From Verrucomicrobiaceae bacterium (GTDB lineage: Bacteria; Verrucomicrobiota; Verrucomicrobiia; Verrucomicrobiales; Akkermansiaceae): a stretch of DNA of 33,483 nucleotides. Below are positions 767 through 30,260 of this stretch, piece by piece; the first letter of the stretch is position 1; every line of letters starts with the position of its first letter. The position numbers were made by a program, and so were the translations under genes. Location of the stretch: contig SYAP01000037.1 in NCBI GenBank assembly GCA_005787565.1, positions 1 through 33,483 of the forward strand. The letters are read 5' to 3'. The notes beneath the pieces are model-generated. The model was not told where the DNA came from and did not search any database. It saw only the letters and a program-made list of their open reading frames with translations.

Positions 767-1864
767 GTGCCCGCTCCTCTCAGAATCATCATCGCCTGTG
801 GCGGCACCGGCGGCCACCTCTTCCCCGGCATCGCCGTCGCCGAGTCCCTCCGCACCCAAGGCCACGAAGTCCTCCTCCTCGTCTCCGAGAAAAAAGTCGA
901 TGCCGAAGCCTCCGCAAAATACTCCCACCTGAAATTCCAAACCGTCCCCGCCGTCGCCAAACCCGCGACCCTCTCCCCCAAAATGCTCCCATTCCTCTGG
1001 CGGCTCTGGGGCTCCATCCGCCGCTGCAAATCCATCATCCAATCCTTCAACGCCGACGCCGTCCTCGGCATGGGCGGCTTCACCTCGCTCCCTCCCGTCT
1101 ACGCCGCCCACAAACTCGGACTCAAAACCTTCATCCACGACTCCAACGCCCGACCCGGCCGCGCCAACGTGATGACCTCCCGCTTCTGCACCAAAGTCTT
1201 CCTCGGCCTCGATCCCGCCAAAACCTTCTTCCCCGGCCGCCAAACCCAACTCACCGGCACCCCCGCACGCCCGGAAATCCTCAACCTCCCCACCCGCGAA
1301 GCCGCCGCCGAACGCTTCGGCCTCGACCCCGCCAAACCCACCATCCTCGTCACCGGCGGCAGCCAGGGCGCTCGCCGACTCAACGAACTCGCCGCACAAG
1401 CCGCCGCCAACCTCCCCGAAAACACCCAGGTCCTCCACATCGCCGGCGCATCCGACTTCGAACGCGTCCGCGAAATCACCACCGCCCGCCCCAACTACCA
1501 CGTCATCGGCTTCTGCGACCAAATGCCCTCCGCCTACGCCTCCGCGGACCTCGTCATCGCCCGCTCCGGCGCATCCAGCCTAACAGAAATCGCCCTCGCC
1601 GCACTCCCATCCATCCTCGTCCCCTACCCCTACGCCGCAGACGACCACCAAACCCGCAACGCCGAAGTCTTCTCCAACGCCAACGCCGCCACCCTCATCC
1701 AGGAAAAAGACCTCAGCGCCCAAAAACTCGCCCAACTCGCCACCGAAATCCTCTCCGACCTCCCCCGCCACCACCGCATGTCCCAAGCCGCCCGCTCCCT
1801 CGCCATCCCAGACGCCGCCGACCGCGTCCGCGACTCCATCCTCTCCACCATCACCCCGATCTAA
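767..1864 (+). CDS. murG: UDP-N-acetylglucosamine--N-acetylmuramyl-(pentapeptide) pyrophosphoryl-undecaprenol N-acetylglucosamine transferase
   Basis: ACGGTGGHLFPGIAVAESL, GMGGFTSLPPVYAA, VTGGSQGARRLNE, ARSGASSLTEIA..PSILVPYPYAADDHQ; GTG start at 767. Confidence 0.95.
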   Translation: MPAPLRIIIACGGTGGHLFPGIAVAESLRTQGHEVLLLVSEKKVDAEASAKYSHLKFQTVPAVAKPATLSPKMLPFLWRLWGSIRRCKSIIQSFNADAVLGMGGFTSLPPVYAAHKLGLKTFIHDSNARPGRANVMTSRFCTKVFLGLDPAKTFFPGRQTQLTGTPARPEILNLPTREAAAERFGLDPAKPTILVTGGSQGARRLNELAAQAAANLPENTQVLHIAGASDFERVREITTARPNYHVIGFCDQMPSAYASADLVIARSGASSLTEIALAALPSILVPYPYAADDHQTRNAEVFSNANAATLIQEKDLSAQKLAQLATEILSDLPRHHRMSQAARSLAIPDAADRVRDSILSTITPI

Positions 1865-2047
1865 CAAACCGCTCGGCTGGCACGCCACCCACGACCCCCC
1901 TGCCAACAAAACCGGAAGCCGCCCCCAAAGACCTCATCGAAGCGGACACCACAAGCCAAGCCGCCCCCTCTAACAAAATCCCACCACCCCACCCCCCTCC
2001 GCAATCTTTTGGATTTCCACACGCCATGCCGGGGTCTTTCATCACGC

Positions 2048-2074
2048 CCGCGTCCGCGACTCCACCCTCTCCAC
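2048..2074 (+). repeat. Displaced copy of the murG 3' end (partner 1822-1848)
   Basis: ccgcgtccgcgactccaccctctccac differs from 1822-1848 at one position by eye; same frame (RVRDSxLST), ending in a TGA that overlaps the murC ATG. Confidence 0.7.
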
Positions 2075-2086
2075 TTTCCCCACCGC

Positions 2087-4399
2087 ATGACCGATCTCAC
2101 CTCACGCCTCACCGACCGCACCCAGCCCCTTCACGTCCACCTCATCGGCGTCGCCGGTTCCGGCATGAGCGGCCTCGCCCTCCTCCTCCTCGGCATGGGC
2201 CACAAAGTCAGCGGATCCGACAAAGTCACCACCGCGGAAACCGAGCGCATGCAAAGCATCGGCCTCCAGTTCTCCTGCCCGCAAACCGCATCCTCCACCG
2301 AAGGCGCGGACCTCGTCGTCTACTCCTCCGCCATCCGCCCGGAAAACCCCGCCTACGCCGCCGCCGCCAAAGCCGGCATCCCCCTCCTCCGCCGCGCCGA
2401 ATGCCTCGCCGCCATCCTCCACACCCGCAAAGGCATCATCATCTCCGGCACCCACGGCAAAACCACCACCTCATCCATGACCGCCCACCTCCTCCGCGAG
2501 GCCGGCCTCAAACCCTCCCACTACGTCGGCGCCGAAATCCCCATCCTCGGCGCAAACGCCCACTGGTCCGAACAAGGCGACGCCATGGTCGCCGAAGGCG
2601 ATGAAAGCGATGGCACCCTCGCCCTCTATCAGCCACAACACTCCGTCATCCTCAACATCGAAGCCGAACACCTCGACTTCTATCGCGACCTCGACCACAT
2701 CAAACAAATCTTCTCCACCCTCGCCGACCAGACCTCCGGAAACATCATCTACTGCGCCGAAGACCCCGTCGCCTCCGAAGTCTGCGCCCACCGCCCCAAC
2801 GCCCTCTCCTACGGCTGGGAAAACGAAGACCACCCCGCCAACTACACCGCCACCGACATCCGCGACCTCAAAGGCTCCTCCGCCTTCACCGTCTGCAAAA
2901 ACGGCACCCCACTCGGCGATATCGAACTCGGCATCCCCGGCAACCACAACATCCTCAACGCCCTCGCCGCCATCGCCATCGCGGACATCTCCGGTGCCGA
3001 ATTCCACCACATCGCCCGCGCCCTCTCCTCCTTCGCCGGTGCCAAACGACGCTTCGAAACCAAATACCTCTCCCCAGCCCTCCGCATCGTCGACGACTAC
3101 GGCCACCACCCCTCCGAACTCGCCGCCACCCTCCAAACCGCACGCTCCCTCAAACCCTCACGCGTCGTCGTCCTCTTCCAACCCCACCGCTACACCCGCA
3201 CCCAGGCCCTCGCCGACGACTTCGGAAAAGTCCTCCAAGCCGCCGACCGCGTCTTCATCACCGACGTCTACCCCGCCTCCGAACCACCCATCCCCGGCAT
3301 CACCGGCAACACCCTCGTCGAAGCCATGGCCGCCCACGGCCACATCCCCGCCACCTACCTCCCCGATCTCGCCACCGCACACCACGCCGTCGGCAACGCC
3401 CTCGAACCCGGCGACCTCCTCATCACCCTCGGCGCAGGAAACGTCCACGAAGCCGGCACTCGCCTCGCCGCCGACTTCAAAACCCTCGAGGAAATGAAAG
3501 CCCTCATGCCACCCGGCGAGATCGACGGCAAACTCTACGAACCCATGAAACGCCACACCACCATGCTCGTCGGTGGCCCCGCACAATTCTGGCTCGAACC
3601 CCACTCCTTCTACGCCTTCGCCTTCCTCGTCGACTACTGCCGCCAACGCGGCCTCCCCATCCGCGTCGTCGGCCGCGGCTCCAACCTCCTCGTCCGCGAT
3701 GGCGGCATCCGCGGCGCCGTCATCCACCCCACCGGCGGCGTCTTCTCCGAAGTCTCCGTCGACGCCAAAGGCCACGTCACCGCCGGCGCAGGCGTCCGCC
3801 TCAAAAAACTCGCCTCCCTCGCCGGTGCCAGCGGCATCGGCGGCTTCGAATGGATGGAAGGCATCCCCGGAAACGTCGGCGGCGCACTCCGCATGAACGC
3901 CGGCGCCATGGGCATCGAAACCTTCGACCAGGTCGTCCGCGTCACCTTCCTCGACGAAGACGGCGTCATCCGCACCCGCGAACGCGAAGAAATCCTCGCC
4001 GAATACCGCAACGTCCAGGAACTCCGCCGCAACTTCGCCCTCCAAGCCGTCTTCAAAGGCAAAAACGACAAACCCGAAAACATCAAAGCCCGCTGGGACG
4101 CCTCACGCGAAAAACGCAAAACCTCCCAACCCGTCGCCGCCTCCGCCGGCTGCACCTTCAAAAACCCCGAATACCTCCCCGCCGGCCGCCTCATCGACTC
4201 CCTCGGCCTCAAAGGCACCACCCACGGCCAAGCCGCCGTCTCCGACATCCACGGCAACTTCATCACCAACCTCGGCGGCGCAACCGCACGCGACGTCCTC
4301 GACCTCATCGAATCCATCCAACAAAAAGCCAAATCCGAACGCCGCGTCGACCTCGAAACCGAAATCAAAATCCTCGGCGAAGACCTCCCCACCTTCTGA
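2087..4399 (+). CDS. murC/murB: Bifunctional UDP-N-acetylmuramate--L-alanine ligase / UDP-N-acetylenolpyruvoylglucosamine reductase (MurC-MurB fusion)
   Basis: MurC: HLIGVAGSGMSGLA, GTHGKTTTSSM, EGDESDGTL, DDYGHHPSE. MurB: VVGRGSNLLVRDGGIRGAVIH, WMEGIPGNVGGALRMNAGAMG, AGCTFKNP. Single uninterrupted frame; ATG at 2087. Confidence 0.95.
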   Translation: MTDLTSRLTDRTQPLHVHLIGVAGSGMSGLALLLLGMGHKVSGSDKVTTAETERMQSIGLQFSCPQTASSTEGADLVVYSSAIRPENPAYAAAAKAGIPLLRRAECLAAILHTRKGIIISGTHGKTTTSSMTAHLLREAGLKPSHYVGAEIPILGANAHWSEQGDAMVAEGDESDGTLALYQPQHSVILNIEAEHLDFYRDLDHIKQIFSTLADQTSGNIIYCAEDPVASEVCAHRPNALSYGWENEDHPANYTATDIRDLKGSSAFTVCKNGTPLGDIELGIPGNHNILNALAAIAIADISGAEFHHIARALSSFAGAKRRFETKYLSPALRIVDDYGHHPSELAATLQTARSLKPSRVVVLFQPHRYTRTQALADDFGKVLQAADRVFITDVYPASEPPIPGITGNTLVEAMAAHGHIPATYLPDLATAHHAVGNALEPGDLLITLGAGNVHEAGTRLAADFKTLEEMKALMPPGEIDGKLYEPMKRHTTMLVGGPAQFWLEPHSFYAFAFLVDYCRQRGLPIRVVGRGSNLLVRDGGIRGAVIHPTGGVFSEVSVDAKGHVTAGAGVRLKKLASLAGASGIGGFEWMEGIPGNVGGALRMNAGAMGIETFDQVVRVTFLDEDGVIRTREREEILAEYRNVQELRRNFALQAVFKGKNDKPENIKARWDASREKRKTSQPVAASAGCTFKNPEYLPAGRLIDSLGLKGTTHGQAAVSDIHGNFITNLGGATARDVLDLIESIQQKAKSERRVDLETEIKILGEDLPTF

Positions 4400-4403
4400 A
4401 ATA

Positions 4404-4427
4404 AGTCCTATAGGTCCTATAAGTCCT
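4404..4427 (+). repeat. Short tandem/palindromic repeat (AGTCCTATAGGTCCTATAAGTCCT) between murC/B and ddl
   Basis: GTCCTATA unit repeated about 2.5 times; includes palindromic GGTCCTATA/TATAGGTCC core. Confidence 0.6.
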
Positions 4428-4449
4428 TTCTCTCACACCCCTCGACCCC

Positions 4450-5364
4450 ATGCTCCACTCCACCAAAATCGCCGTCCTCATGGGCGGACCCGGCTCCGAA
4501 CGCCAAGTCTCCATCGCCTCCGGAACCGCCGTCCTCAAAGCCCTCCAATCCCTCGGCTACCAAGCCTTCCCCGTCGATGTCACCGGCACCACCATCGACC
4601 TCCCACCCGGCACCGGCCTCGCCTACAACCTCATCCACGGCACCTTCGGCGAAGACGGCCAACTCCAGGAAATCCTCGAACAACAAGCCATCCCCTACAC
4701 CGGCGCACGCTCCGCATCCTCACGCATCGCCTTCGATAAAAACCTCGCCAAAGACCGCTTCACCGCCGCCGACGTACCCACCCCGCGCGCCGAAATCCTC
4801 GACGTCTCAAACGGCCCAAAACTCCCCTCCATCCCCGTCCCCTTCGTCGTCAAACCCCCGCGCGAAGGCTCATCCGTCGGCGTCACCATCGTCCGCGATC
4901 CCGCCCTCGCCGCCGCCGCCATCGCGGACGCCGCCAAATACTCCACCGACCTCCTCATCGAGGAATTCATCGAAGGCAAGGAACTCACCGTCGCCATCCT
5001 CGACGACACCGCCCTCCCCATCGTCCACATCGCCCCTCGCGATGGCTTCTACGACATGGCCAACAAATACCCATGGCTCGGCGGCGGCGGCGCAGGCAGC
5101 GACTACCACTGCCCCGCAGACCTCGATCCCGCCACCACCGCCGCCGTCCAAGCCGCCGCCCTCGCCGCCCACCGCTCCCTCGGCATCGAAGTCTACTCCC
5201 GCGTCGACGTCCTGTTAGACGCCCAAAACCGCCCCTTCGTCCTCGAAGCCAACACCATCCCCGGCATGACCGAAACCTCCCTCCTCCCCAAAGCCGCCGC
5301 CGCCGCCGGAATCCCCTTCCCCCAACTCTGCCAAAAAATCGCCGAACTCTCCCTCACCCTCTAA
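4450..5364 (+). CDS. ddl: D-alanine--D-alanine ligase
   Basis: VLMGGPGSERQVSIASG, LIHGTFGEDGQLQEILE, FVVKPPREGSSVGV, EEFIEGKELTVAIL, FVLEANTIPGMTETSLLPKAA. Confidence 0.95.
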   Translation: MLHSTKIAVLMGGPGSERQVSIASGTAVLKALQSLGYQAFPVDVTGTTIDLPPGTGLAYNLIHGTFGEDGQLQEILEQQAIPYTGARSASSRIAFDKNLAKDRFTAADVPTPRAEILDVSNGPKLPSIPVPFVVKPPREGSSVGVTIVRDPALAAAAIADAAKYSTDLLIEEFIEGKELTVAILDDTALPIVHIAPRDGFYDMANKYPWLGGGGAGSDYHCPADLDPATTAAVQAAALAAHRSLGIEVYSRVDVLLDAQNRPFVLEANTIPGMTETSLLPKAAAAAGIPFPQLCQKIAELSLTL

Positions 5365-5444: not shown

Positions 5445-5693
5445 ATGAAATCGGCATCCATCCGCGACCTCCGCAACGCCTTCCCCACCGTCGCACGGTG
5501 GATCGATGAAGGGGAAAGCGTCGAAATCACCCGCGCGGGCAAGCCATTCGCCCGTCTCGAACCGATCAAACCGGAACCCTCGCTCCATCGGATCATGCCG
5601 GACTTCCTCGCCCGCATGCGCCAACACTTCCCCAACGAGAAACCGGGGAAAGGCCTTTCCAGTGTGGTGGACTACGCCCGCGGCGACCGATGA
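5445..5693 (+). CDS. Phd/YefM-like type II antitoxin
   Basis: MKSASIRDLRNAFPTVARWIDEGESVEITRAGKPFARLEP; ATGA overlap with downstream PIN gene. Confidence 0.75.
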   Translation: MKSASIRDLRNAFPTVARWIDEGESVEITRAGKPFARLEPIKPEPSLHRIMPDFLARMRQHFPNEKPGKGLSSVVDYARGDR

Positions 5694-6151
5694 ACGCCTA
5701 CGCGGACACTGGATTTGTAGTCACCCTCTACAAACAGGAAACCACCAGCCCCCAAGCCGCCGCCTTGATGGCCCGCCAGAAGACTTCTGTCCAATTGACA
5801 CAACTTGGCGAACTCGAATTCCTCAACGCGCTTCACCTGGCGGTGTTCCGGAATGAAATCACGGCAACCAACGCGGCCCTGAAGAAACGCCTGTTCCTCG
5901 AAGACCTCGCAAACGGAATCTTCACCATCACCCCCGTCCCCGCTTCCGCGCTCTTCGCGAAATCCATCGAACTCGCCAACCGTCACAGCGCAACCCTCGG
6001 CACCCGCAGCCTCGACCTCATGCACATCGCCGCCGCACTCCTCCTCAAAGCCGAAACCTTCCTCAGCTTCGACGAACGCCAGCGCAAAGCCGCAAAAGCC
6101 GAAGGCCTCAAAGTCAAACCCGCCTCCCTCCCAACACCATCCCCGGCATGA
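5690..6151 (+). CDS. PIN-domain (VapC-like) toxin; stop codon supplied by ddl-derived repeat
   Basis: MNAYADTGFVVTLYKQETTS...LGTRSLDLMHIAAAL...FLSFDERQRKAAKAEGL; acidic PIN residues; last residues PTPSPA* read from the ddl 3' copy in another frame. Confidence 0.8.
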   Translation: MNAYADTGFVVTLYKQETTSPQAAALMARQKTSVQLTQLGELEFLNALHLAVFRNEITATNAALKKRLFLEDLANGIFTITPVPASALFAKSIELANRHSATLGTRSLDLMHIAAALLLKAETFLSFDERQRKAAKAEGLKVKPASLPTPSPA

Positions 6152-6243
6152 CCAAAACCTCCCTCCCCCCCAAAGCCGCCGCCGCTGGAATCCCCTTCCC
6201 CCAACTCTGCCAAAAAATCGCAAAACTCTCCCTCTCCTTCTAA
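6131..6243 (+). pseudogene. Copy 2 of the ddl 3' end
   Basis: Reads NTIPGMTKTSLPPKAAAAGIPFPQLCQKIAKLSLSF* versus Ddl NTIPGMTETSLLPKAAAAAGIPFPQLCQKIAELSLTL*; roughly 90+% nucleotide identity by eye with one 3-nt gap. Confidence 0.9.
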
Positions 6244-7728: not shown

Positions 7729-7833
7729 CTCGAAGCCTACACCATCCCCGGCATGACCGAATCCCGCCTCCCTCCCAAAACCGCCGGCATCCCATTCCTC
7801 CACAACTACCAAAGACTCCCCGAACTCTCCCTA
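7729..7833 (+). pseudogene. Copy 3 (more diverged) of the ddl 3' end
   Basis: Reads LEAYTIPGMTESRLPPKTAGIPFLHNYQRLPELSLAP versus Ddl LEANTIPGMTETSLLPKAAAAAGIPFPQLCQKIAELSLTL. Confidence 0.8.
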
Positions 7834-8036
7834 GCTCCCATCGCCACACAGCAGAGCAACGACTTCCGCCCGCAAACATTCCCATCGCGAATCAGCCACC
7901 CTCACCGCCGCTACGACCACCCACCCGAGCCATCCCATCCGGGCCTATCGTTCCCCAGTTCACCACATTCTCAGCATCCCTCTCCCAACATCCCAACTCT
8001 AGACATCCGCCCCAGCTCCGCCTATCCTCAGCACCG

Positions 8037-8320: not shown

Positions 8321-8870
8321 TTGCAACGGCTCCTCTCCCGCGATGCACTCAAGCCCTTCGCCCTCGGTGAAGGCACCTCTCTCGCCCTCCGCTTCGGCCA
8401 TCGTCTCTCGGTGGATCTCGACTACTTCACCCTTGTCGAATTCCACCTAACACCCTGCTCGAGACGCTGAAGCTCGATGAAACGACCATCCTCTCCGTCG
8501 CAAAAAACTCCTTAAGCCTCGTCTCGCACGGCGTGAAAATCGATCTCATCCGCCACGCATACCATCAGGTCGCACCCATCGACATCATCGAAGGACACCA
8601 ACTCATCTCCGTCCCGGACCTTGCTGCCATGAAGCTCAACGCCATCGCCAATCGAGGATCGAAAAAGGATTTCTATGACCTCGCCGAGCTTCTTCATCAT
8701 CACACGCTCGGCGAAATGCTCCGCTTCTTTTCCACCAAAGATCCCGCCACCGATCCATTCGCCGTCATCCGAGCCTCGCTTGGTTTGAAGATGCCGAACT
8801 CGAACCCGATCCAGCTCCTCTTGCAGCGCAGACCTGGGAACAAATCAAACAGCAGACGCCAAGCCCAAGG
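8279..8870 (+). pseudogene. AbiEii-type nucleotidyltransferase remnant with at least two frameshifts
   Basis: LQRLLSRDALKPFALGEGTSLALRFGHRLSVDLDYFT | NTLLETLKLDETTILSVAKNSLSLVSHGVKIDLIRHAY...AAMKLNAIANRGSKKDFYDLAELL | SLAWFEDAELEPDPAPLAAQTWEQIKQQ read across three frames (shifts near 8440 and 8780). Confidence 0.7.
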
Positions 8871-8951
8871 ATTCACACGGGTCATCCAATCGTTAGAGTT
8901 TTTGGCACTCGACCTCAATGGTGACCGAAGAGTCTTTCGCAAATCTCTTAA

Positions 8952-8983
8952 AATCCGTGTCCATCTGCATTGATCCGTGGTTC
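8952..8983 (+). repeat. AATCCGTGTCCATCTGCATTGATCCGTGGTTC element
   Basis: Internal ATCCGTG reiteration; resembles the 'atccgtgt-catctg-atccgtggtt' type intergenic repeats I recall from various bacterial genomes (from memory, not searched). Confidence 0.4.
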
Positions 8984-22746: not shown

Positions 22747-24345
22747 ATGTCCTCGTCCAAAGCCACATGGAAAGTCAGCGCCGCCGTCATGGCCAGCCGC
22801 GTGCTCGGTCTCGCGCGCGAAATGATGTTCGCCGGTCTCTACGGCGGCAGCCGCTGGATGGACTGCTTCTACCTCGCCTTCAAGGTCCCCAACCTCCTGC
22901 GCGACCTCTTTGCCGAAGGCGCGCTCTCCCAAGCCTTCGTCACCACGTTCTCGAAAAAACTCCAGGTCGAGGGCGAAAAACCCGCGTGGGAACTCGCCCA
23001 CAAGATGCTCACCCTCGCCGCGGTCTTCATGAGCCTCGTCTCGCTGTTAGGCATCGTCGCCGCACCATGGATCGTCGATCTCCTCACCGCCCTCTCCCGT
23101 TCGGGAAATTCCCCACGCGTCTATGATCCCGCCGAAGTCGCGCTGATCGTCACCATGGTCCGCGTGATGTATCCCTTCATTCTGTTAGTCTCGCTCGCCG
23201 CACTCGTGATGGGCCTGCTCAACGCCAAGAACATCTTCGGCATGCCCGCGCTCTCGTCGTGCTTTTTCAACATCGGCTCCATGGCCGGCGGCGCGGCCTT
23301 CGGCTATTGGATGGACCCCACCTGGGGCCCGCAAAGCCTCGTCGGCTTCGCCATCGGCGTCGTCATCGGCGGTGCCGCGCAATTGATCTGCCAATTCCCC
23401 GCCCTCCGCCGCGCCGGATACCGCTACATCGCCGACTTCCGCTGGCGGGATTCCGGCGTCCGCCAAATCCTGAAACTCATGGCCCCAGCCGTGATCGCCG
23501 CGTCGGTCGTGCAGATCAACGTCGTCGTCAACGCCATGTTCGCCTACGCCGTCGAAGGCGGTGCAGTCAGTTGGCTCAACTACGCCTTCCGCCTCATGCA
23601 ACTCCCCATCGGCGTCTTCGGCGTCGCCGTCGCCACCGTCACCCTCCCCGCCCTCTCCCGCGCCGCCGTCAACGGCATCTCCAACGATTTCAACCCCACC
23701 CTTGCCAAAGGCCTCCGCCAGGTCGCCTTCCTCGTCCTCCCCTCCACCATCGGCCTTGCCCTCCTCGCAGAACCCATCGTCAGCCTCCTCTACGAGCGTG
23801 CAAACTTCGACGTCCGCGACCGCCTCCAAACCGCCGCCGCCCTCCGCGCCTACGGATACGGCCTCGTCTTCTACGCCGCCCTCAAAGTCCTCCAACCCGC
23901 CTTCTACGCCATCGACCGCCGTTGGTTTCCCATGATCGTCAGCTTCTTCGCCCTCGGCCTCAACCTCGGCTGCAATTACCTCTTCGTCTTCGTCCTCCGT
24001 TGGGGCCACGAATCCCTCGCTCTAACAACAAGCATCGCCGCCTCCGTCAACTTCATCGTCCTCTACCTCGCCATGCGCAAATTCGCCGGCGATCCCGGCA
24101 CCCGCGGCATGCTCACCCTCCTCATGAAACTCCTCCTCGCCGGCGGAGCCATGGCCGCCCTCTGCTGGGCCGCCAACCGCTTCCTCTTCGCCGACCTCTC
24201 CCACATGGCCCTCTGGTGGAAAATCATCGCCCTCTCCGCCACCTGCGGCACCGCCGCCATCCTCTATTTCCTAACAGCCAAACTCCTCCGCGTCTCCGAA
24301 GCCCAAGAAGCCCTCGCCATGGTCACCCGCCGCCTCAAACGCTGA
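22747..24345 (+). CDS. murJ: Lipid II flippase MurJ/MviN
   Basis: SRVLGLAREMMFAGLYGGSRWMDCFYLAFKVPNLLRDLFAEGALSQAFVTTFS; multiple TM segments; LLYERANFD. Confidence 0.95.
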   Translation: MSSSKATWKVSAAVMASRVLGLAREMMFAGLYGGSRWMDCFYLAFKVPNLLRDLFAEGALSQAFVTTFSKKLQVEGEKPAWELAHKMLTLAAVFMSLVSLLGIVAAPWIVDLLTALSRSGNSPRVYDPAEVALIVTMVRVMYPFILLVSLAALVMGLLNAKNIFGMPALSSCFFNIGSMAGGAAFGYWMDPTWGPQSLVGFAIGVVIGGAAQLICQFPALRRAGYRYIADFRWRDSGVRQILKLMAPAVIAASVVQINVVVNAMFAYAVEGGAVSWLNYAFRLMQLPIGVFGVAVATVTLPALSRAAVNGISNDFNPTLAKGLRQVAFLVLPSTIGLALLAEPIVSLLYERANFDVRDRLQTAAALRAYGYGLVFYAALKVLQPAFYAIDRRWFPMIVSFFALGLNLGCNYLFVFVLRWGHESLALTTSIAASVNFIVLYLAMRKFAGDPGTRGMLTLLMKLLLAGGAMAALCWAANRFLFADLSHMALWWKIIALSATCGTAAILYFLTAKLLRVSEAQEALAMVTRRLKR

Positions 24346-26096: not shown

Positions 26097-26602
26097 AACG
26101 CAACGGATTCACCCTAACGGAACTGCTGGTGGTCATCGCCATCATCGCCACCCTCGCCGGCATCGCCTTCCCCGTCTCCCGCTCCTTCATCGGGAAATCC
26201 CGCCAGGCCGCCTGCCTCACCCAGCTCCGCTCCATCGGCATCGGCATGCAGGAATACCTCCAGGAAAACAACCAGACCATGCCCCTCCTCTCCCCCGGGC
26301 GCACCTCCAAAACCGAAGACATCCCCGTCCTCGAAACCGTCCTCCTCCCCTACCTCCAGTCCCCCGAAGCCTTCCGCTGCCCCGCCGACAAAAAACAATA
26401 CGACGCCTCCGGCTCCAGCTACCTCTGGAACCCCACCCAAAACGGCCTCCACGTCACCAAACTCGCCTTCTTCGGCGTCAACAACCGCCCCGAATCCATC
26501 CCCCTCGTCTTCGACAAGGAATCCTGGCACCCGCGCGGCGTCAACTTCCTCTACGCCGACTCCAGCACCTCCAGCGAAATCCGGTTCTCCACCGGAAACT
26601 AA
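26093..26602 (+). CDS. Prepilin-type N-terminal cleavage/methylation domain protein (type II secretion pseudopilin-like)
   Basis: MKRNGFTLTELLVVIAIIATLAGIAFP; C-terminal WHPRGVNFLYADSS similar to H-X9-DG region. Confidence 0.9.
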   Translation: MKRNGFTLTELLVVIAIIATLAGIAFPVSRSFIGKSRQAACLTQLRSIGIGMQEYLQENNQTMPLLSPGRTSKTEDIPVLETVLLPYLQSPEAFRCPADKKQYDASGSSYLWNPTQNGLHVTKLAFFGVNNRPESIPLVFDKESWHPRGVNFLYADSSTSSEIRFSTGN

Positions 26603-26611
26603 CAGAAACAG

Positions 26612-27508
26612 ATGTTAGAAGCCACCAACCTCCAGAAATCCTTCGCCGGGAAACCCGCCCTCCGCGACGTCTCCTTCACCGTCAAAAAAGGCGAGATCCA
26701 TGGACTGTTAGGGCACAACGGCGCCGGCAAAAGCACCACCCTCGGCATCATCCTCGGCATGGTCATGCCCGATCACGGAAACGTCTCCATCGGCGGCCTC
26801 TCCGTCCTCACCCACCGCTCCCAAGCCCTCCGCAAGGTCGGAGCCATCTTCGAGGCACCCTCCTTCTACGACTACCTCAGCGGCTGGGAAAACCTCCGCA
26901 TCCTCATGGGATACTCCAACGGCTTCGATCCCGCAGCCGCGCAAAAAGTCGTCGCCGAAGTCGGCCTCACCAAACGCATCCACTCCAAAGTCCGCACCTA
27001 CAGCCACGGCATGCGCCAACGCCTCGCCCTCGCCCAGGCACTCCTCCCCGAGCCCGAGCTACTCCTGTTAGACGAACCCACCGACGGCCTCGACCCCGAA
27101 GGCATCAAATGGTTCCGCGACTTCATCCTCCAGCTCCGCGAACAACGCGGCATGACCGTCCTCTTCAACTCCCACCTCCTCGCCGAGGTCGAGCTCATGT
27201 GCGACCGCGTCACCATCCTTCGCGAAGGAAAACTCATCCACGAGGGCACCCTCCGCAGCCTCCAGGAAGAAACCCCCATCTACGAGGTCGATCTCTCCCC
27301 CTGGGAAAAAGCCGCCCCCCTCATCCAACAAGCCGGCGGCGAAATCCTTTCCCCTAACAAAATCTCCCTCCCCCACTCGCTCGACCCCGCCACCTTCACC
27401 GCCGCCCTCATCCATTCCGGCATCCAGCTCCGCGCCTTCGCCCCCCACCGCCGCTCCCTCGAAGACCTCTACATGGAACTCCTCAACGGCGCCTCCTCGC
27501 CCAACTGA
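26612..27508 (+). CDS. ABC transporter ATP-binding protein
   Basis: Walker A GHNGAGKST, signature YSHGMRQRL, Walker B LLLDEPTDGLDP, N.HLLAEVE. Confidence 0.95.
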   Translation: MLEATNLQKSFAGKPALRDVSFTVKKGEIHGLLGHNGAGKSTTLGIILGMVMPDHGNVSIGGLSVLTHRSQALRKVGAIFEAPSFYDYLSGWENLRILMGYSNGFDPAAAQKVVAEVGLTKRIHSKVRTYSHGMRQRLALAQALLPEPELLLLDEPTDGLDPEGIKWFRDFILQLREQRGMTVLFNSHLLAEVELMCDRVTILREGKLIHEGTLRSLQEETPIYEVDLSPWEKAAPLIQQAGGEILSPNKISLPHSLDPATFTAALIHSGIQLRAFAPHRRSLEDLYMELLNGASSPN

Positions 27509-27583: not shown

Positions 27584-27889
27584 ATGGCCATCATGACGAT
27601 CCGCACCACCGTCGCCTTCGATCCAGCCACTGCGGCGCGGCTTGAACGGCTCTCTCAGCGTTGGGGCGTTTCCAAATCCGAGACCCTCCGCCGCGCCCTC
27701 GAAAGAGCGGAAGTAGCCGCATCCGCTCCTTCATCATCATCCGAACCGACTTTTGAGGAAATCGCATCCATGTCGCCGGCCGATGCCTTCGCCTGGCTCA
27801 ACAAACACTCGCTCATCACACCTGAACAAGGAGCCGCTTGGCGCGAACAAGTGGAACATACCCGTGCGGATTTCGCTTCACGGCCATGA
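27584..27889 (+). CDS. Ribbon-helix-helix antitoxin
   Basis: MTIRTTVAFDPATAARLERLSQRWGVSKSETLRRALERAE. Confidence 0.8.
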   Translation: MAIMTIRTTVAFDPATAARLERLSQRWGVSKSETLRRALERAEVAASAPSSSSEPTFEEIASMSPADAFAWLNKHSLITPEQGAAWREQVEHTRADFASRP

Positions 27890-28266
27890 TCCATCTCGAC
27901 AGCAACCTTCTCATCGCCCTCGCGGATCCCGCCGATCCCCACCGGGAAAAGGCCCTCCAACTCATGCGAGCGCTCCCACAAGCCGCCGTATCCAGCTTGG
28001 CATGGTGGGAATTCGAGTGTGGGCCCGTCAGCCCCGAAGGCATTGCGATTGTCCGAATCATGCTCCCGGGCGGAATACTCCCTTTCACCGAGACTCAAAG
28101 CAGGGAAGCTGCCCTTCTCTTCAATGCAGCAGGCCGTGCCCGCCGTCTCAAGTTCGACTCGCTCATCGCCGCAACCGCCATTCTCGCGAATGCCGAGTTG
28201 GCCACCGTCAATCCATCCGATTTCCAGCCTTTCGTCCCACACGGCCTCAAACTCCACGTTTGGTGA
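27886..28266 (+). CDS. PIN-domain (VapC-like) toxin
   Basis: MIHLDSNLLIALADPADPHREKAL...RARRLKFDSLIAATAILANAELATVNPSDF; ATGA overlap with antitoxin. Confidence 0.85.
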   Translation: MIHLDSNLLIALADPADPHREKALQLMRALPQAAVSSLAWWEFECGPVSPEGIAIVRIMLPGGILPFTETQSREAALLFNAAGRARRLKFDSLIAATAILANAELATVNPSDFQPFVPHGLKLHVW

Positions 28267-29641: not shown

Positions 29642-29890
29642 ATGATCACCGCCAGCATGCATGAAGCCAAGTCCCGCCTTTCCGAGTTGGTCAAGGCAGT
29701 GGAGGAAACCGGCGAGATCGTCGTGCTGCAGCGCAATGGCAAGCCCGTGGCGGAGATTCGTCCTTACCTTCCTCCCAAAAAGATCCGCCGCGACTTGCGC
29801 CCGGAACCCTCGCTCCGCCCGATTCTCGCCCCTGGCTATGATCCTGCGGAGCCGCTGAGTGACGATGAATGGCCTGAGGATTGCCGATGA
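29642..29890 (+). CDS. Phd/YefM-family antitoxin
   Basis: MITASMHEAKSRLSELVKAVEETGEIVVLQRNGKPVAEIRP; ATGA overlap with next gene. Confidence 0.85.
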   Translation: MITASMHEAKSRLSELVKAVEETGEIVVLQRNGKPVAEIRPYLPPKKIRRDLRPEPSLRPILAPGYDPAEPLSDDEWPEDCR

Positions 29891-30260
29891 AACTGCTGGT
29901 CGATACTTGCGCCCTTCTTGCCCTCGGCACGGGAAACCTGCCGAAGAAGGCTTCCAAATGCCTGTCAACGGCGGATGAAGCAGCGGTTCCCGCCTTGGTG
30001 GCTTGGGAGATCGCCATCAAGGTAAGGACCGGAAAACTGCTGCTGCCAGACGCTCCTCTGCCATGGATCGAATCCCTCTGCAACTTGCTCTCCAGTGGCA
30101 AGGACCCGACACCCGCCTCCTTTGCGCTGCCGCCGACTTGCCGCGGATTCACCGCGATCCTTTTGACCGGGTCCTCATCGCCACCTGCCTCTCGCAGAAC
30201 CTCACCATCCCCACCTCTAACCGGATCATTCCTACCTATCCGGGCGTGAAAGTCATTTGA
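29887..30260 (+). pseudogene. PIN-domain toxin disrupted by a frameshift
   Basis: N-terminus MKLLVDTCALLALGTG...VPALVAWEIAIKVRTGKL in frame of 29887; conserved C-terminus AAADLPRIHRDPFDRVLIATCLSQNLTIPTSNRIIPTYPGVKVI in the frame of ORF 30003-30260. Confidence 0.75.

Follow-up and report, generated by a model that had tools for sequence, protein, structure and literature searches.

Integration of the element e14 into icd is site-specific, takes place at the 3' end of the gene and restores it. In Helicobacter pylori, restriction-modification genes have been described as insertions with a long target duplication (Nobusato, Uchiyama, Ohashi, Kobayashi 2000, as cited in PMC1643837 and PMC3154945), a class in which such cargo, or a comparable selfish gene unit, is frequent rather than obligatory (PMC1643837). 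In addition, orphaned 3' ends formed by homology-facilitated illegitimate recombination have been reported for Rhs and for the T6SS arrays of Vibrio (PMC5361080, PMC3240628). Here we describe a scar between murG and murC in the draft, metagenome-type assembly (364 contigs, 78% complete) of a Verrucomicrobiaceae bacterium (Akkermansiaceae in the GTDB lineage; G000), located on a contig of 33,483 nt (C12) that is referred to as the window. Similar to the insertions in Helicobacter, in which the duplicated target is longer than that of a transposon, the locus contains a foreign segment flanked by a duplicated target. The cargo of that class is often selfish, being restriction-modification genes there and a comparable unit, a toxin-antitoxin pair, at ddl here; the 183 nt at murG are apparently non-coding. 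The duplication at ddl (116 nt at 91% identity) is clearly long, whereas that at murG, with only about 30-42 nt, is short for the class, and the uninterrupted site was read here from relatives, none of them near-identical. The coordinates of all features are given in Table 1.

Table 1. Features of the murG-murC-ddl region, with positions in the window
Feature	Position	Strand	Remarks
murG, complete, active copy	767..1864	+	365 aa, 78-79% identity to closest relatives; C terminus as long as theirs
Upstream copy of murG 3' end (core 1822-1848)	1819..1855	+	sequence match
183-nt insert	1865..2047	+	absent from the junction in 30 genomes; without copies, structure or promoter
Downstream copy of murG 3' end (core 2048-2074), TGA overlapping the murC ATG	2045..2090	+	
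murC (fused to murB)	2087..4399	+	
ddl, active copy	4450..5364	+	second duplication has the 3' end 5249-5364 as its template
Toxin-antitoxin pair inserted after ddl (Phd/YefM-like antitoxin, PIN-domain toxin)	5445..6151	+	PF02604 (below cut-off), PF01850 (above cut-off)
Second copy of ddl 3' end	6131..6243	+	91% identical; altered at residues conserved in relatives
Third copy of ddl 3' end	7736..7842	+	most decayed

The two cores of the duplicated murG end are identical at 26 of 27 positions and share a reading frame, a match that an earlier note on this DNA had described and that proved exact on recount, and a BLAST alignment extends it to 30 nt at 93% identity (1819-1848 and 2045-2074; 46.4 bits). 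Counted from the RV codons through the stop, both copies align without gaps over 42 nt encoding 13 residues (RVRDSILSTITPI and RVRDSTLSTFPTA, each followed by the stop), with 32 of the 42 positions identical; they differ by five amino-acid-changing and two silent codons, the stop codon being among the silent ones. Also in agreement with the note, murG terminates at 1864 ahead of an insert, estimated there at about 180 bp and found to comprise 183 nt without a gene of its own, and the stop codon of the downstream copy overlaps the start codon of murC in an ATGA at 2087-2090. When predicted genes were compared, each by its terminal 45 nt, with the following 320 nt, murG scored highest (24.5; runner-up 18.0) among the 3' ends of 221 genes sampled from 449 kb of the source genome, and the highest scores were 17.5 among 400 genes of relatives and 13.5 among 597 5'-end controls (first 45 nt). 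A chance origin of the match, which the note had regarded as fatal to its reading, was therefore not borne out. Likewise, in a wider survey of 797 kb (20% of the genome, 412 predicted genes), in which gene ends of 120 nt were compared with 3.5 kb of downstream sequence, only ddl (163 bits) and murG showed a duplicated 3' end with at least 42 bits. Since genes were called by a simple, purpose-written codon-usage predictor, which was checked on the window, these gene counts are approximate. Weaker candidates were rejected as intergenic repeats, matches between neighboring coding sequences or doubtful ORFs. Scored alone, the downstream copy fits the murG ends of 22 relatives better than 99.988% of the window positions.

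In 30 genomes of the same genus murG and murC are joined directly, with a 4-nt overlap in 27 and a 1-nt gap in three, as expected in the earlier note, and a direct junction is also present in most of the named database records. The 183-nt insert is therefore the derived state, and the downstream copy sits at the place of the ancestral murG terminus. The murG end, which occurs once in the relatives, is present here in two copies, one on each side of the insert. Among named records, the nearest are metagenome-assembled genomes of Akkermansiaceae, Verrucomicrobiaceae and Luteolibacter, and the closest MurG proteins found in this comparison, which covers relatives outside the species, are 78-79% identical. 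The two genes lie apart in a subgroup of six genomes (G004, G005, G008, G015, G018, G021), and a gap of 194 nt separates them in G086. In G017, an insert of 854 nt (L021, 2578-3431) between murG and murC carries a PIN-domain toxin gene on the opposite strand; no duplicated gene end was found at this insert. The proposal that the downstream copy represents the displaced original end of murG holds insofar as this copy occupies the ancestral place and resembles the ends of relatives, whereas the upstream end may be either a replacement, as the note held, or the native end: the two copies are about equally close to the relatives, matching them at 21.0 and 20.3 of 36 positions.

A search for further copies of the insert, whose dispersal the earlier note had suspected, yielded none in the source genome (best off-target E value 0.004) and no significant match in 73 genomes of the genus, where only short matches at noise level were obtained (best E value 0.0019). 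No inverted ends were found in the insert, it folds no better than shuffled sequences (z +1.06), and it contains no promoter and only a single weak terminator-like match on the opposite strand. A structured or regulatory insert was rejected in view of this fold score and the lack of a promoter, as was an upstream region of murC imported from the genomes closest in murC, three of which show no resemblance to the insert. The insert presumably has no function of its own.

As claimed in the earlier note, the same pattern exists at ddl, which starts approximately 2.6 kb beyond the end of murG and is followed by two further copies of its 3' end, so that three successive ends are present in total. 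Decay of these copies grows with their distance from the gene. Relative to the active end, the second copy shows five amino-acid-changing codons, two silent codons and the loss of one codon. Since the changes mostly alter amino acids, several of them at residues that vary little or not at all among 24 relatives (TETSLLPK to TKTSLPPK, AELSL to AKLSL), the second copy is a duplicate in decay, and the ddl copies are the result of duplication followed by decay. The third copy is separated from the second by about 1.5 kb of unrelated DNA with two predicted proteins lacking a Pfam match. In relatives ddl is usually followed by ftsQ, directly or within tens of bases, and is directly joined to it in most members of the genus; in the source genome the contig bearing on the region upstream of ftsQ (C347) ends inside this gene. 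A partial ddl match in another genome (G014, C261) was discarded as a contig edge. Other genes resembling toxin-antitoxin systems also occur in the window: a ribbon-helix-helix and PIN pair recognized by Pfam (27584-28266), a Phd protein paired with a small protein without Pfam match (29642-30249), and a predicted protein at 8533-8973 that matches the AbiEii nucleotidyltransferase toxin family only in part (profile positions 134-177 of 238) and is preceded by a fragmentary ORF.

The anatomy of this region, as read from a draft metagenome-type assembly, leads us to favor, with moderate confidence, illegitimate recombination that inserted foreign DNA and duplicated the target as the origin of the murG-murC scar. 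This reading is supported by the direct junction in 30 genomes, by a repeat far above chance and by the uniqueness of the insert, as well as by the independent match of the downstream copy to the murG ends of relatives, the decay of the ddl copies and the insertion of a PIN-toxin gene at the same junction in G017. Counting against it, the relatives provide no near-identical empty site, the closest murG reaching only the identity given above, the insert could not be traced to a source, and the insert in G017 is not accompanied by a duplicated gene end. In such an event, an ancestor with the murG TGA overlapping the murC ATG would have suffered a break within the last 40 or so nucleotides of murG, and repair would have captured 183 nt of unrelated DNA, leaving a copy of the gene end on either side of it. 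The copy kept on murG would still give MurG its normal length, the other would still adjoin murC, and the two would have diverged since. At ddl the same kind of event would have taken place at least twice, the nearer one having brought the toxin-antitoxin pair.

Among the alternatives, homology-facilitated illegitimate recombination deserves most attention, even though we regard it as unlikely. Here, DNA of a related strain would have recombined within murG and brought in the murG end of the donor together with its flank, the present insert, while the other end was joined illegitimately at the native terminus, which was thereby displaced downstream. The pattern proposed for Rhs and the Vibrio T6SS arrays (PMC5361080) likewise combines a new 3' end and flank with older 3' ends that have been displaced, and the series of active gene, new DNA and older 3'-end remnants seen at ddl resembles these arrays. 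In line with such a process, genes of the operon show mosaic affinities within the genus (positions 767-5364 for murG, murC and ddl, and 22747-24342 for murJ). While murJ is nearest to G001, G013 and G011, and murG overall to G001, G011 and G013, stretches of murG are closer to genomes in which murG is not followed by murC; murC is nearest to G005, G040 and G084, and ddl to G012, G002 and G023. Judged from these affinities, the mur operon has probably recombined. However, the mosaic is modest and places no breakpoint at the insert, and none of the 73 genomes of the genus has the insert downstream of its murG. A donor with the same gene end and the inserted flank was thus not found among them, although an unsampled donor may exist. 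Moreover, the regions upstream of murC in three genomes of the group closest in this gene are unlike the insert, and the differences between the copies are mostly amino-acid-changing, as expected of decay and not of two functional genes diverging. In contrast to the Rhs and Vibrio arrays, housekeeping genes rather than polymorphic toxins are affected here, and the copies look like decayed duplicates and not like alleles of different origin.

A second alternative, which we consider very improbable, ties the 3'-end insertions to the hexamer CTAACA: the motif would guide uptake or integration of DNA, and the insert would start at TCTAACAA, which supplies the new stop while the old end is pushed downstream. 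Both genes with duplicated ends, murG and ddl, stop in TCTAACAA, while 11 of 206 genes stop in CTAACA; this association was noticed after the fact and comprises two cases. The insert itself contains one CTAACA in addition to that at the murG stop. Independently of this reading, the motif is strongly enriched across the sampled genome, with 390 occurrences in 449 kb compared to 27 expected from trinucleotide composition (approximately 14-fold) and 681 in 797 kb (0.85 per kb), whereas variants with the first or fifth base changed, or with the last base replaced by T, occur at counts near or below expectation. Positions in the window include 1580, 1861, 1970, 5213, 5361 and 26599-26618, and the preferred context is YCTAACAR. 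Coding and non-coding DNA carry the motif alike, with 222 of the 390 occurrences falling in predicted genes at a coding fraction of 64%. It overrides codon usage: CTA-ACA codon pairs number 72 versus 1.4 expected, and TGTTAG accounts for 42 of the 61 TTA codons. A second octamer, TCTATCAG, one base different from the first motif, is also enriched (75 versus 2.5 expected in 449 kb) in an analysis of the sampled source genome and of stretches of G018, G001 and G041; in G018, CCTAACCG occurs 13 times in 40 kb (1.2 expected) and could represent a dialect. Enrichment of CTAACA varies within the genus: at the high end, G057, G062 and G071 have about 1 copy per kb or more, and at the low end no enrichment is visible in G052, G054 and G009. 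It resembles that of the motif classes of uptake sequences, Chi and HIP1 (PMC4390886), and CTAACA is a candidate for a DNA uptake sequence or for a motif of the Chi or HIP type; full-text searches of open-access articles turned up no description of an uptake sequence for this group.

That the assembly is chimeric here, or that the repeat arose by chance in C-rich coding DNA, appears just as improbable: the genome is fragmented and incomplete, and short repeats do occur in its C-rich DNA, but the top rank of murG among the gene 3' ends, the restriction of such duplications to ddl and murG and the independent match of the downstream copy to relatives argue against chance, and a chimera is at odds with copies that differ, with the single occurrence of murG and murC at high identity and with a junction inside a 33-kb contig. 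Least probable of all is the small mobile element that the earlier note proposed to target gene 3' ends and supply a replacement end, in the manner of some integrase elements, since, despite the pattern at two genes of one operon with stop codons in the same motif and a likeness to e14 in icd in the intact 3' end of the host gene and the displaced end beyond the insert, the lack of dispersed copies in the source genome and the genus largely refutes it, the cargo at ddl is different and unrelated, no third gene among the 412 sampled is affected, and, unlike e14, the tiny murG insert and the unrelated inserts at ddl show no integrase, terminal repeats or defined att core, with no recombinase detected by a Pfam scan of five predicted proteins in and downstream of the ddl inserts and the 183 nt being too short for one.

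MurG is intact and of normal length. The murC start no longer overlaps the stop of murG but follows it after 222 nt, and murC is no longer translationally coupled to murG; a promoter search of the insert recognized no start signals of its own for murC. The murG-murC scar is one more instance of an insertion of a known kind, genuine but small, and is not a new gene-end-targeting element. The occurrence of two such events 2.6 kb apart suggests a local hotspot, and in G017 a toxin gene lies at the very same murG-murC junction. The locus provides a clean, polarized example of an essential, translationally coupled operon tolerating an insertion: the upstream gene retains an end of full length and the displaced terminus stays with the downstream gene, at the expense of the coupling between them.
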